A stretch of 64,000 nucleotides of DNA from Burkholderiales bacterium (GTDB taxonomy: Bacteria > Pseudomonadota > Gammaproteobacteria > Burkholderiales > Burkholderiaceae_C): contig JAECRL010000008.1 in NCBI GenBank assembly GCA_016000265.1, positions 1 to 64,000 of the forward strand, written 5' to 3'. The notes below the pieces were generated by a model. The model was not told the origin of the DNA and made no database searches. It saw nothing but the letters and a program-made list of their open reading frames with translations. The translations under genes were made by a program, and so were the position numbers. Below are positions 31,333-64,000 of the stretch, piece by piece (position 1 is the stretch's first letter; every line of letters begins with the position of its first letter).

Positions 31333-33054
31333 ATGAATGCTGTGTCGTCTGCGGCCGCTCCCGCACCTGTGCTGAACGCGGCCTTGCTGCAATTCAACCC
31401 CACCGTCGGTGACCTGGGGGGCAACGTCCGCGCCATCGCCGACGCGGCTCGCCAAGCCTACGCCGAAGGCGCCCGCCTTGTCGTGACGCCGGAAATGGCC
31501 TTGTGCGGCTACCCGCCCGAGGACCTGCTGCTGCGCCCGGCCTTTCTCCACGCCTGTGAAGCGGCCTTGTCTCGACTCGCCGCTGAGCTGGCCGACCTCG
31601 CCGACCTGCACCTCGTCGTCGGCCACCCCCAGCGCTTGCAGGAAGACGCCACGCGCACGCGGTCCTGGCAGGTCCAGCGCCTGCTGAACGCCGCCAGCGT
31701 GCTCCACGGTGGCCGGGTGTGCGCCACTTACGCCAAGCGCGAGCTCCCCAACTACCAGGTCTTCGACGAGCGCCGCTACTTCGTCAGCGGCCGCGAGGCC
31801 GGCCTGGGCCCCGTGGTGGTCGACGTCAACGGCTGGCGCGTGGGCCTCCTGGTTTGTGAAGACGCCTGGTTTGAGGAGCCCGCGCAGGCGGCCGCCAGCC
31901 AGGGCGCGCAGGCCCTGGTGGTCCTCAACGCCTCGCCCTTCCACGCCGGCAAGTCCGCCGAGCGCGAGCAGCGCATGGCCGAGCGCGCGCGCCAGGTCGG
32001 CCTGCCGTTGCTCTACGCCCACCTCGTCGGCGGCCAGGACGAAATCGTCTTCGACGGCGCCTCCTTCGCGGTGGACGCCGCTGGCCGCGTCATGGCCCGC
32101 GCCCCCAGCTTCGAGCCCTGCACCTTGCACGTGCGCCTGCACGCCAACGGCCTGGCCGGCGCGCAGCTCGCTGGCAGCATGGCCGCGCCCCTCTCGCCCG
32201 AGGCCGAAATCTGGCAGGCCCTGGTCACCGGCGTGCGCGACTACCTGGGCAAGAACGGCTTCCCCGGTGCCATCATTGGCCTCTCGGGCGGCATCGACTC
32301 GGCCCTGGTGCTGGCCATCGCGGTCGACGCCCTGGGCGCCGACAGGGTCCGCACCGTGATGATGCCCTCGCCCTACACGGCCGACATCTCCTGGATCGAC
32401 GCCCGCGACATGGCCGACCGGCTGGGCGTGCAGCACGACGAGATCGCCATCGCGCCCGAGTTCGAGGCCTTCAAGGCCTCGCTGGCGCCGCTCTTCGCGG
32501 GCCGAGCCGAGGACACCACCGAAGAAAACATCCAGGCCCGCATCCGCGGCACCCTGCTCATGGCCCTGTCCAACAAGACGGGCGCCATCGTGCTGACCAC
32601 CGGCAACAAGAGCGAGATGGCCACGGGCTACTGCACGCTCTATGGCGACATGGCCGGCGGCTTCGCCGTCATCAAAGACCTGGCTAAAACGCTCGTTTAC
32701 CGCCTCTCGCGCTGGCGCAACGCCCAGGCGGTGGCCGCGGGCCAGGTCGAGCCCATCCCCGATCGCATCATCACCCGCCCGCCTTCGGCCGAGTTGCGCC
32801 CCGACCAGACCGACCAGGACAGCCTGCCCGAGTACGACGTGCTCGACGCCATCCTGGAGCGCTACATGGAGCTCGACCAGTCCATCGAGCAGATCGTGGC
32901 CGCCGGCTTCGATCGGGCCGACGTGGACAAGGTCACCCGCCTCATCAAGCTCAACGAATACAAGCGCCGCCAGGCGCCCATCGGGGTGCGCATCACGCAC
33001 CGCTCGTTCGGGCGCGACTGGCGCTATCCCATCACGTCGCGCTTTCGCGCGTGA
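31333..33054 (+). CDS. nadE: Glutamine-dependent NAD+ synthetase
   Basis: N-terminal nitrilase-like glutaminase (ALCGYPPEDLLL, YAKRELPNYQVFDERRYF, VCEDAW) and C-terminal synthetase (IIGLSGGIDSAL, TGNKSEMATGYCTLYGDMAGG). Confidence 0.96.
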   Translation: MNAVSSAAAPAPVLNAALLQFNPTVGDLGGNVRAIADAARQAYAEGARLVVTPEMALCGYPPEDLLLRPAFLHACEAALSRLAAELADLADLHLVVGHPQRLQEDATRTRSWQVQRLLNAASVLHGGRVCATYAKRELPNYQVFDERRYFVSGREAGLGPVVVDVNGWRVGLLVCEDAWFEEPAQAAASQGAQALVVLNASPFHAGKSAEREQRMAERARQVGLPLLYAHLVGGQDEIVFDGASFAVDAAGRVMARAPSFEPCTLHVRLHANGLAGAQLAGSMAAPLSPEAEIWQALVTGVRDYLGKNGFPGAIIGLSGGIDSALVLAIAVDALGADRVRTVMMPSPYTADISWIDARDMADRLGVQHDEIAIAPEFEAFKASLAPLFAGRAEDTTEENIQARIRGTLLMALSNKTGAIVLTTGNKSEMATGYCTLYGDMAGGFAVIKDLAKTLVYRLSRWRNAQAVAAGQVEPIPDRIITRPPSAELRPDQTDQDSLPEYDVLDAILERYMELDQSIEQIVAAGFDRADVDKVTRLIKLNEYKRRQAPIGVRITHRSFGRDWRYPITSRFRA

Positions 33055-59790: not shown

Positions 59791-60549
59791 ATGGCATCGA
59801 TCACCCACACATCCCGTCACTTCCTGGTGGCCGCTGGCCTGGTTGGTGCCTCGTTCGGGGCTCAGGCCCTGAACCTGACGATCCCGACGACGCTGATCGA
59901 CGCCGAGTCGGTTTTCAGCTTCAACACGGACACTTCGGACCTGATGAGCAGCATGGGCGTGGGCGTGTCCGCTTTGGGCAACACCCGGCAGTTGGGCGGA
60001 GGCGGCTGGAACTTCATGATGCCGGTGACGCAGGTCACCCTCAACGCGTCGATCTTCTCCTTGAGCCTGGACCCGGTGTCGGGGTTCGCTTCAGGCTCCG
60101 GCTTGCTGATCAAGAGCGAAACCGGTGCGTTGTCGCTGGCCAATTTCGGGCTCGACTTCAAGCGCAACGTGCTCACCGCTGACTTGGCGACAGCCCAGGG
60201 CACGCAAAAGACCTTCGATGTTTTCGCTTTCAACGTGGCGGAAAACCTGCACCTGTCCACCAGCGGCGGGCTGTCGATGAAGATGAACCTCACCGACATG
60301 ATGCTCACCGCGGGCGCCCAGACGCAGTTCGCGTCAGCCCTGCAGCTCGAGGAGTACGCGGTCGCCGTGTTGCCCATGCTGAACTTCGGCTCCCTGTCGG
60401 TCGACATCTCGCCGATGCTGCGCCTGGGCTTGTCTGACAAGTCGCTGACAGCGCCCGTGCCGGAATTGCCACCCCTGGCCATGTTGGCGCTGGGTTTGGC
60501 CGGCATGGCCTTCGTGTCTCGCCGTCGCTTGTCGATGCTGGAGCGCTGA
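59791..60549 (+). CDS. Secreted protein with PEP-CTERM-like C-terminal sorting signal (PEL variant)
   Basis: N-terminal signal peptide (HFLVAAGLVGASFGAQAL); C-terminus APVPELPPLAMLALGLAGMAFVSRRRLSMLER = proline/acidic motif + hydrophobic helix + Arg cluster. Confidence 0.7.
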   Translation: MASITHTSRHFLVAAGLVGASFGAQALNLTIPTTLIDAESVFSFNTDTSDLMSSMGVGVSALGNTRQLGGGGWNFMMPVTQVTLNASIFSLSLDPVSGFASGSGLLIKSETGALSLANFGLDFKRNVLTADLATAQGTQKTFDVFAFNVAENLHLSTSGGLSMKMNLTDMMLTAGAQTQFASALQLEEYAVAVLPMLNFGSLSVDISPMLRLGLSDKSLTAPVPELPPLAMLALGLAGMAFVSRRRLSMLER

Positions 60550-60729: not shown

Positions 60730-61740
60730 TCACGCTCCGGGCTTGGGCACCGGGCCGCTGACGGGCTCCATCAGCAGGCCCGACCAGTGCAGCGGCGCCG
60801 TGGTGCGTCGCTTGGCGTCGATGTCCTGGTAGATGTAGGTGGCTTGCTGCTCGCTGAGGCCCAGGCGTTCGGCCAGTTGGGCGGGCGGCAGGCCCTGGTT
60901 GACATGCCACAGCGCCACGTCCATCTCCTTGTAGGGCAGGGCGTAGTAGAACTCGTCCTGTCCCTGGCTGAGGCTGTAGGTGTCGGTGGTGGGCGTGGCG
61001 TTGCAGATGACGTCGGGCAGGCCCATGTGGCGGGCCAGCGCGTACACCTGGCTCTTGTAGAGGTGGGCAATCGGCTTGAGGTCGGCCGAGCCGTCGCCGT
61101 TTTTCACGAAGAAGCCCTGGTCGTACTCCACGCGGTTGGGCGTGCCCACCACGGCGTAGTTCAGGCGGTCGGCGTGGAAGAACTCCAGCGTCTTGCGAAT
61201 GCGCTGCTTGAAGTTCGTGGCCGCCACGATCTGCAGGTACTCGCGCAGGCCCAGGCGCTGCTCGTGCAGGGGGCCGTTGCCCGGCTCCTGCACCACGAGT
61301 TTGAAGTGGTTGATCTGGCCTGCGGTGCCACCGGCGATGACGATCTTGTTCTTCCAGCCTTCGCCGTAGGCCGGGTACACGGCGCGGATGGCCTCGTCAC
61401 GCCAGCGGTAGCAGCCGATGGCCTCCAGCGTGGGGGCGATGTCTTCGATGGTGTAGCGGATGCCCAGGTGCTCGGCCAGCAGCTTGCCCTTGACCACGCT
61501 CTCCGACGACGAGTCGCGCTCGGGCATCAGCAGGCCGAAGACCTTGTCCGGCCCCAGCGCCTTGACCGCCAGGGCGGCGCAAACCGAGCTGTCGATGCCG
61601 CCCGACATGGCCACCACCAGGCCGCGTCGGCGCAGGTGCTGACGCATCAGTTCGCGGATTTTTTCGGTGGTGCGGGTGATTTCTGCGTCCCGGTCGAACG
61701 GCAGCAGTTGGTCGATCAGGGCGTCGATGTCTTTGCGCAT
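60730..61740 (-). CDS. Ammonia-type NAD(+) synthase-like protein (ATP-PPase fold)
   Basis: 336 aa; GLVVAMSGGIDSSVCAALAVKAL; VVGTPNRVEYDQGFFVKNGDGSADLKPIAHLYKSQVYALARHMGLPD; no glutaminase domain. Confidence 0.88.
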   Translation of the reverse strand: MRKDIDALIDQLLPFDRDAEITRTTEKIRELMRQHLRRRGLVVAMSGGIDSSVCAALAVKALGPDKVFGLLMPERDSSSESVVKGKLLAEHLGIRYTIEDIAPTLEAIGCYRWRDEAIRAVYPAYGEGWKNKIVIAGGTAGQINHFKLVVQEPGNGPLHEQRLGLREYLQIVAATNFKQRIRKTLEFFHADRLNYAVVGTPNRVEYDQGFFVKNGDGSADLKPIAHLYKSQVYALARHMGLPDVICNATPTTDTYSLSQGQDEFYYALPYKEMDVALWHVNQGLPPAQLAERLGLSEQQATYIYQDIDAKRRTTAPLHWSGLLMEPVSGPVPKPGA

Positions 61741-61786
61741 GGGCTGGCCTGGTGCGGTGAGGTCGTTGGAGTAAGGGCGCGTCGGC

Positions 61787-63352
61787 TCAGGCTTGGCCTG
61801 GGTGCGCCGGGATGAGGTGCTTCTGGATCTTGCCGGAGGCGGTGCGGGGCAGCGCGTCGAAGCAGTCCACCTGGCGCGGCATCTTGTAGAGCGGCAGGCG
61901 CTCGCGGCAGGTGCGCAGGATGTCGCGCGTCAGGGTGCTGGCTTCGGGGGCATCGAGGGCGGGCACCACGCAGGCGCGGATGACCTCACCCAGCAAGGTG
62001 TCGGGCATGGCGAGCACGGCGCATTCCTGCACGCCGGGCACCAACTGGATGACCTGCTCGATTTCCTGCGGTGCCACGCGGTGCGCGCCCACTTTGATGA
62101 TGTCGCGGCTGCGGCCGTGCAGGAACAGGAAGCCTTCGTCGTCCAGGTGGCCGATGTCGCCCGTGCGCAGCCAGCCGTTTTGCAAGGTTGCGGCGGTGTC
62201 GTCCGGGGCTTGCCAGTAGCCTTGCATGACGTTGTCGCCTTGAGCGCAGACCTCGCCCACTTCCCCGCAGGGCAGGCGTGCGCCATCGGGGCCCAGCACA
62301 CGCAGGCGCACGCCTGGCAGGGGCCGCCCCACCGAGCCGCGCTTGCGCAGGCGTTCAGGGGCGGGCAGGGTGGTCAGGCGCGAGCAGGCCTCCGTCTGGC
62401 CATACATGACCCAGAAGCCGACCTGGGGCAGCAGGGCGCAGAAGGCGTCGATGCGGGCCGGGTCCATGGGGCCGCCCGCCTGGGCCACGTAGCGCAGCGA
62501 GCCCAGGTTCGCGCCGGTGATCTGCCCCCGCTCCAGCAGCAGGTAGTAAGACGAGGGCACGCCGTGGAAAGCCGTGACGCCGCATTGCGCCATGCGCTGC
62601 GTGATGCGCTGCGGGTACATGAAGCTGTTTTCCAGCACCAGCGTGGCCCCCAGCGTGAGGTGTGTGTGCAGCACCGAGCCGCCGTAGGCGTAGTGGAAGG
62701 GCAGCACGCACAAGGTGACGTCGTCGGCCTGCATGGGCAGGCTGGCCTGCACGGCAGCGACGTTGGCGGCGAGGTTGGCGTGGCTGAGCATGACGCCCTT
62801 GGGCTGTCCCGTCGTGCCGGAGGTGAAGATCAGCGCCGCCGTGGAGGAGCGGTCCGTGGCGAGGGGGGCGTCACAAGGGGGCTCGGCAGTCGGCTCGGCC
62901 AGCCAGGCGTCCAACTCGAACGCGGCCACGCCGCTGCGCCCCCATTCGTCCTTCTGCGCGGCGAAAGCCGGGTCGAGCAGAGCCAGTCGGGCCCCGCACT
63001 GGTGGCCCAACGCGATGAGGTCGGGCAGCTTGAGCGCCGGGTTGAGCGTGGCGGTGACGCCGCCGGCCCACCAGGTCGCGTAGATGGCGGCGGCCAGTTC
63101 GGCGCGGTTGTCCATCACGATGACCACGGGCTCGCCGGGCTGGATGCGGCCGCGGAGCCCTTGCCCGATGCGCTCGACCCAGGACCAGAGCTGGGCGTAG
63201 GTGGTGCGGCGCTCGCCTTCGACGAAGGCGGTGTGTGCGCCGCGCGTGCGCGCGACGTGCTCCAGTTGGGCCAACAGCGGCCGAGGCGCAGGCGCACCCG
63301 GGCTCGCTTCGTTCCGCATTGAGGTGAGTTCAACGGTCAACGACATTTCCAT
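61787..63352 (-). CDS. AMP-forming acyl-CoA synthetase/ligase family protein
   Basis: AALIFTSGTTGQPKGVMLSHANL; MYGQTEACSRL; GWLRTGDIGHLDDEGFLFLHGRSRDIIKVGAHRVAPQEIE; RTASGKIQK. Confidence 0.94.
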   Translation of the reverse strand: MEMSLTVELTSMRNEASPGAPAPRPLLAQLEHVARTRGAHTAFVEGERRTTYAQLWSWVERIGQGLRGRIQPGEPVVIVMDNRAELAAAIYATWWAGGVTATLNPALKLPDLIALGHQCGARLALLDPAFAAQKDEWGRSGVAAFELDAWLAEPTAEPPCDAPLATDRSSTAALIFTSGTTGQPKGVMLSHANLAANVAAVQASLPMQADDVTLCVLPFHYAYGGSVLHTHLTLGATLVLENSFMYPQRITQRMAQCGVTAFHGVPSSYYLLLERGQITGANLGSLRYVAQAGGPMDPARIDAFCALLPQVGFWVMYGQTEACSRLTTLPAPERLRKRGSVGRPLPGVRLRVLGPDGARLPCGEVGEVCAQGDNVMQGYWQAPDDTAATLQNGWLRTGDIGHLDDEGFLFLHGRSRDIIKVGAHRVAPQEIEQVIQLVPGVQECAVLAMPDTLLGEVIRACVVPALDAPEASTLTRDILRTCRERLPLYKMPRQVDCFDALPRTASGKIQKHLIPAHPGQA

Positions 63353-63430
63353 GCAGTCTAGGGGGATTCGGCGCCATCGTGAGGCGCTTATCATCGATCC
63401 AGGGTACTCAATTCGAGGGGGTGAAGGCTC

Positions 63431-64000
63431 ATGTGCGGTATCGCAGGTGTGCTGGATTGGCGCGGGCTGGCCAATTCGGCGTGGTCGCCTGCCCCAGCCT
63501 TGCTGGCCGAGATGGCGGCAACCCTTCATCACCGAGGCCCCGATGGTCGCGGCTTCCTGTCACGTCCCGCCGTGGGGCTCGCGCACACGCGCCTGGCCAT
63601 CGTGGACCTGGCGGGTGGCGATCAGCCCATCTTCAACGAGGACGGCCGCATCGCGGTGGTCTTCAATGGCGAGATCTTCAACCACGTCGAGTTGCGCGCC
63701 GAGTTGCAGGCGCAAGGGCATCGCTTTGCCACGCGATCCGACACCGAGGTCATCGTCCACCTGTACGAGCAGCACGGCGACGACTTCGTGCACCACCTCA
63801 ATGGGCAGTTCGCCATCGCCTTGTGGGACGGTCGGGACGACGCGCGCCAGCGCCTGCTGCTCGTGCGCGACCGCGTCGGCATCGCGCCCTTGCACTACCG
63901 ACTGGCGGCCCACGAAGGCGAGCACCAACTGGTCTTCGGCTCCGAAGCCAAGGCCATCCTGGCCGCCATGCCTCAGGCGCCTGAGGTCAACCGGCGGGCG
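63431..64000 (+). CDS. Asparagine synthetase-like class II glutamine amidotransferase (partial; runs off right edge)
   Basis: MCGIAGVLDW with Cys2 nucleophile; HHRGPDGRG; RLAIVDLAGGDQPIFNEDGRIAVVFNGEIFNHVELRAELQAQGHRFATRSDTEVIVHLYEQ. SD-like GAGGGGG upstream. Confidence 0.93.
   Translation, partial: MCGIAGVLDWRGLANSAWSPAPALLAEMAATLHHRGPDGRGFLSRPAVGLAHTRLAIVDLAGGDQPIFNEDGRIAVVFNGEIFNHVELRAELQAQGHRFATRSDTEVIVHLYEQHGDDFVHHLNGQFAIALWDGRDDARQRLLLVRDRVGIAPLHYRLAAHEGEHQLVFGSEAKAILAAMPQAPEVNRRA

Follow-up and report, generated by a model that had tools for sequence, protein, structure and literature searches.

A NAD-synthetase paralogue in a conserved carrier-protein gene cassette of a Burkholderiales bacterium

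At the right edge of the stretch of Burkholderiales DNA analysed here (64,000 nucleotides, below called the window), a NadE-like ATP pyrophosphatase is encoded next to an AMP-forming acyl ligase and an AsnB-like amidotransferase. On balance we favour, by a narrow preference, the reading that these genes make up the left part of a cassette that is conserved and exchangeable and includes a neofunctionalised NadE paralogue, and that an amidated and acylated building block is its most likely product. Both the cassette and the conclusion that the NadE paralogue is not a housekeeping enzyme have good support. The parts are ordinary; it is their combination that is unusual, and it is very constant.

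The four-gene cassette and its neighbours

The core cassette consists of the genes for the AsnB-like protein, the carrier protein ACP1, the AMP ligase and the NadE-like protein (Table 1). The reading frames, domains and strands of the three genes at the window edge, the Cys2 of the amidotransferase and its exit from the window are all as first described. The gap between the two divergent genes, given as 78 bp in the preliminary description, is short indeed, but its exact length is 111 nt from start to start (ligase ATG at 63319), or 75 nt from the alternative ligase ATG at 63355. The NadE-like gene and the ligase gene are 46 nt apart.

Table 1. Features of the cassette and its surroundings.
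Feature	Position	Strand	Remarks
Canonical glutamine-dependent NAD synthetase	31333..33054	+	same window, outside the cassette
NadE-like ATP pyrophosphatase, NAD-synthetase paralogue, PRK00876 subfamily	60730..61740	-	336 aa
AMP-forming acyl ligase	61787..63319	-	AMP-binding and C-terminal domain; predicted acyl-ACP synthetase for ACP1
Divergent intergenic region, ligase / AsnB-like gene	63320..63430		presumed shared promoter region, from position only
AsnB-like class II glutamine amidotransferase	63431..64000 in window, gene end 65446	+	N-terminus MCGIAG, Cys2 present
ACP1	65468-65722 (contig, right of window)	+	DSTG phosphopantetheine site
KAS III ketosynthase	65734-66813 (contig, right of window)	+	
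ACP2	66810-67064 (contig, right of window)	+	WDSMG carrier motif
GNAT protein	67086-68252 (contig, right of window)	+	
LpxO-like lipid A hydroxylase	68264-69193 (contig, right of window)	-	438 bits, cut-off 500

To the right of the window an acyl carrier protein, glycosyltransferases or exosortase genes had been predicted. The first of these expectations was correct, as ACP1 and ACP2 are found together with a KAS III and a GNAT protein; the others failed, with no glycosyltransferase or exosortase seen among the ORFs called to 118 kb (annotated in part). The catalytic Cys, His and Asn of the KAS III are in place in an alignment to solved FabH-type enzymes. The flank is not made up of housekeeping genes only: ACP1, KAS III, ACP2 and GNAT precede the LpxO-like gene, beyond which lie an aldehyde dehydrogenase gene and then alaS. 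The LpxO-like gene is kept in congeners both with and without the cassette.

In a set of 56 loci, dereplicated at 90% identity and with at least 6 kb of flank on both sides, the AMP ligase and ACP1 lie beside the NadE-like gene in every locus, and an AsnB-like gene is also found within 7 kb of it in 52. This recurrence indicates that the arrangement in the window, where the genes for the AsnB-like protein, ACP, AMP ligase and NadE-like protein are adjacent too, is not a chance neighbourhood. That the genes form one biosynthetic unit, as the preliminary description had it, is thus strengthened, since the four-gene arrangement recurs elsewhere and an ACP is present here. The gene order varies: the ACP can stand on either side of the ligase, and NadE first or last. 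Distances between the cassette proteins are only moderately correlated (0.48-0.67), and we give these correlations no weight.

The cassette is spread over alpha-, beta- and gammaproteobacteria and Myxococcota, with carriers that include Sinorhizobium, Mesorhizobium, Azospirillum, Shinella, Steroidobacter, Pseudoxanthomonas, Thiodiazotropha, Methylobacter and myxococcal MAGs. Nothing relevant to the four-gene set was found in the literature searched. In one congener (G748, locus L188) the nadE-ligase-asnB-acp1 block is missing, while kas3-acp2-gnat, lpxO, the PEP-CTERM-like gene described below and trmB are in place; in other congeners the whole stretch is missing. The four genes are therefore gained and lost together; KAS III, ACP2 and GNAT make up a second, separable unit.

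Several further observations concern the surroundings of the cassette. A protein of 252 aa and of secreted type, whose tail is PEP-CTERM-like (PVPELPPLAMLALGLAGMAFVSRRR), is encoded at 59791-60549 of the window; it has weak matches, to PEP-CTERM families only, and in congeners its gene adjoins the site whether the four genes are there or not. Another member of the genus (G609, L081) carries a methyltransferase-type cassette with different flanking genes, which suggests exchange between versions. In three Pseudoxanthomonas-like loci (L147, L136 and L067) two conserved genes stand between the AsnB-like gene and ACP1: one for a second methyltransferase and one, on the other strand, for a protein of about 400-440 aa that resembles a PQQ-dependent sugar dehydrogenase. 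Just downstream of the cassette in L163 (11760-13913) a long protein has an exosortase-A-type hydrolase domain (TIGR03100, below cut-off), and similar genes are found near the cassette in several other loci.

Acyl loading and the ligase switch

Acyl-ACP loading is the only cassette step with experimental support, which comes from homologues in S. meliloti and would apply to the window by analogy. The cassette of S. meliloti 1021 is located at 1450586-1455388 of pSymB, and its ligase is the only AMP-binding gene of that replicon, so the cassette pair should be SMb20650/SMb20651. In the sections of PMC7232532 on this pair, SMb20650 is the pSymB ligase, co-transcribed with the ACP SMb20651; holo-SMb20651 is acylated in E. 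coli when SMb20650 is expressed, while SMb20650 does not enable fadD mutants to grow on oleate and shows no oleoyl-CoA-forming activity. The pair is treated there as ligase and ACP only, the text of those sections not including asnB and nadE. The S. meliloti genes thus belong to the same cassette as those of the window, with the ligase in the same position and acylating the ACP (PMC7232532, same sections). The two ligases differ, however, in type: that of S. meliloti has Asp at position 235, that of the window Ala.

The first step is also like that of the Dlt system, in which a stand-alone ligase, DltA, loads D-Ala on the small carrier DltC for surface modification. This is an analogy and not membership: DltB and DltD were not seen here, and the match to DltC is weak (24.8 bits, cut-off 68).

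Position 235 is numbered after the Asp235 of NRPS adenylation domains, to which we take it to correspond by motif alignment. The cassette ligases split into two clades, and a PrmC/HemK-like methyltransferase (best score against TIGR03534 199.7 bits, cut-off 199.1) is found inside or close to 31 cassettes, which all belong to one of these clades. Asp is found at position 235 in 33 of the 102 cassette ligases, and 31 of the 33 are accompanied by the methyltransferase, a count that is not phylogenetically independent: under parsimony the ligase tree needs 4-5 changes, and the NadE and AsnB trees 10-14. The methyltransferase is absent from the other 69, which have Gly, Ser, Ala, Asn, Thr or Cys at this position. 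Position 301 switches with position 235, being Thr in 33 of 33 and Ala in 69 of 69. No column that follows the switch was found in the alignments of NadE, AsnB or ACP1. The simplest reading is a constant AsnB-like/NadE-like core to which the ligase supplies an acyl arm that can be interchanged.

The switch of ligase and methyltransferase gives a direct prediction of the substrate type. As the window ligase has Ala in place of the Asp that marks amino-acid activation, an acid other than an alpha-amino acid is predicted here, with KAS III, ACP2 and GNAT as the further arm.

In the pathway that we propose the ligase would adenylate a carboxylic acid and load it on ACP1, as others have shown for the S. 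meliloti homologues. The AsnB-like protein, with ammonia derived from glutamine, would form an amide on a carboxylate of a core molecule, and the NadE-like protein, an adenylating synthetase without glutaminase, may form another; this role would make it a neofunctionalised NAD-synthetase paralogue. This core molecule is probably shared by all cassette versions. In the Asp235-type arm the PrmC-like methyltransferase is predicted to N-methylate an amide, while processing of the acyl group and its transfer are the steps predicted for KAS III, ACP2 and GNAT in the window-type arm. The end product would most likely be an amidated, acylated building block, and in several lineages it may go into an exported polysaccharide, which is the weakest step. 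In its widest form the proposal is tentative: a widespread carrier-protein pathway may have recruited a NAD-synthetase paralogue as a dedicated enzyme for amide formation, and would combine a constant AsnB/NadE core with interchangeable acyl arms (an amino acid and N-methylation, or other acids and KAS III/GNAT), by which a surface glycan or metabolite is diversified.

Surface glycan or small molecule

A role in surface glycans is suggested by the neighbours of the cassette in some lineages, not by the window genome. With markers for sugar transferase, chain length, export, kinase and deacetylase, at least two XrtA-type EPS genes were found within about 10 kb in 24 of 105 loci; EPS genes flank the cassette in many gammaproteobacterial loci, and in Sinorhizobium the cassette methyltransferase adjoins lipopolysaccharide-biosynthesis and GumC genes. 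No EPS genes were seen beside the window cassette, and for the window genome such a role might apply by analogy. According to the relevant part of PMC7468200, the AsnB-type enzymes WbpS/WbqG and PGN_1234 of P. gingivalis amidate sugar acids of surface glycans. They are of the same type as the window protein; however, that part describes no dedicated ACP, ligase or NadE paralogue for them (PMC7468200).

Alternatively the product could be a soluble small molecule or lipid (an osmolyte like N-acetylglutaminylglutamine amide, an aminolipid, a siderophore or an antibiotic) rather than part of a glycan, which we regard as possible but somewhat unlikely. The AsnB-like protein is related to the NAGGN amidotransferase family, although its 324.9 bits against TIGR03104 miss the cut-off of 570. 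Further, ACP1 weakly resembles the ACPs of ornithine lipid and cispentacin, and many loci, including that of the window, are without EPS genes nearby. The LpxO-like hydroxylase that adjoins here could also speak for a lipid, but it stays in congeners that lack the cassette, and the gammaproteobacterial loci flanked by EPS genes speak against a small molecule.

The NadE-like and AsnB-like proteins

The NadE-like protein belongs to the subfamily of the NF002048/PRK00876 profile (469.6 bits, cut-off 313) and has a single-domain NAD_synthase fold without the glutaminase domain. The PP-loop (SGGIDSS), the N-x-K-x-R motif and the GDG motif of the P2-loop are kept. About 56 positions hold a fixed residue that is absent from all of the four ammonia-type enzymes used for comparison, one of them E. 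coli NadE, and there is an extra insertion at approximately residues 109-168 with invariant G109, C110, Y111, R114, W129 and K132. The AlphaFold model (mean pLDDT 88) shows a NAD-synthetase fold with extra strands from the insertion, and its best PDB matches are ammonia-dependent NAD synthetases and an NMN synthetase. Sequence and predicted structure are compatible with a changed substrate, and also with NaAD or a similar dinucleotide.

With the ammonia-dependent NadE and the Francisella NMN synthetase this protein has the fold, and presumably the adenylation chemistry, in common. It differs from them in being rare, in its insertion and fixed substitutions and in being locked to a carrier-protein cassette. 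In PMC3376133 the NAD-synthetase family is sorted by the arrangement of the glutaminase, and neither the classification section nor a term search of that paper gave a paralogue of this kind.

Could it then be another functional NAD (or NMN) synthetase, one that adds to the local NAD supply and has only loosely related neighbours? The name of the NCBIfam subfamily, NAD(+) synthase, the conservation of the catalytic motifs and of a large part of the nucleotide site, and the NMN synthetase among the fold matches are in line with this. The genomic context, however, argues against the NAD synthesis implied by the PRK00876 name. The protein is not the sole NAD synthetase, as the canonical glutamine-dependent enzyme is encoded in the same window, and another NAD synthetase is present in all 20 other carriers tested; this indicates that the NadE-like copy does not serve the NAD supply. 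Further, the subfamily is sparse: it is found in 11 of 151 genomes of the family, thus absent from 140 of these relatives, in 15 of 398 genomes of the phylum sample and in one of 14 control genomes (Methanosarcina acetivorans). Together with the insertion, the fixed residues and the ligase and ACP that adjoin it at each of the 56 loci, this makes a second NAD synthetase quite improbable. A specialised rather than NAD-making protein, as first proposed, is what it looks like, given the separate synthetase in the genome.

It is very improbable that the AsnB-like protein is a plain cellular asparagine synthetase placed here by chance. It is the only large and strong Asn_synthase match in the window genome and passes the broad TIGR01536 cut-off (454 bits, cut-off 267), but it falls far below that of the E. 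coli-type AsnB model (PRK09431, 302.8 bits, cut-off 499), is linked to ACP and ligase in the 52 loci mentioned above and is absent, like the rest of the four-gene block, from the congener G748.

Exosortase A systems (TIGR03098, TIGR03108) are alike in having a ligase and an AsnB-type amidotransferase in EPS clusters, and membership in them had been raised in the preliminary description. These two families are the second-best matches of the cassette proteins; however, the window ligase reaches 287.8 bits against TIGR03098 (cut-off 592) and the amidotransferase 383.5 bits against TIGR03108 (cut-off 817; the S. medicae copy has 442.9), so that both cut-offs are missed by half. The three exosortases of the window genome are all below the XrtA cut-off (TIGR03109) and lie on other contigs (C6, C9). 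XrtA above cut-off was found in none of 24 sampled carriers, in 3 of 20 further carriers chosen partly for their EPS neighbours, and in 38 of 140 non-carriers of the family. That the cassette is an XrtA accessory module is accordingly mostly refuted and the least probable of the explanations, even though some loci lie among XrtA-type EPS genes and a neighbouring gene here has a weak PEP-CTERM-like tail: XrtA is absent from most carriers, and the constant partner is the NadE paralogue.

For the model symbiont S. meliloti, the orphan carrier protein SMb20651 gains a full set of candidate partner genes. If the proposed role of the NadE-like protein is true, many environmental and symbiotic bacteria would have an enzyme with the NAD-synthetase fold that acts outside NAD metabolism, and since it is annotated as NAD(+) synthase, genome annotations and metabolic models would miscount it.
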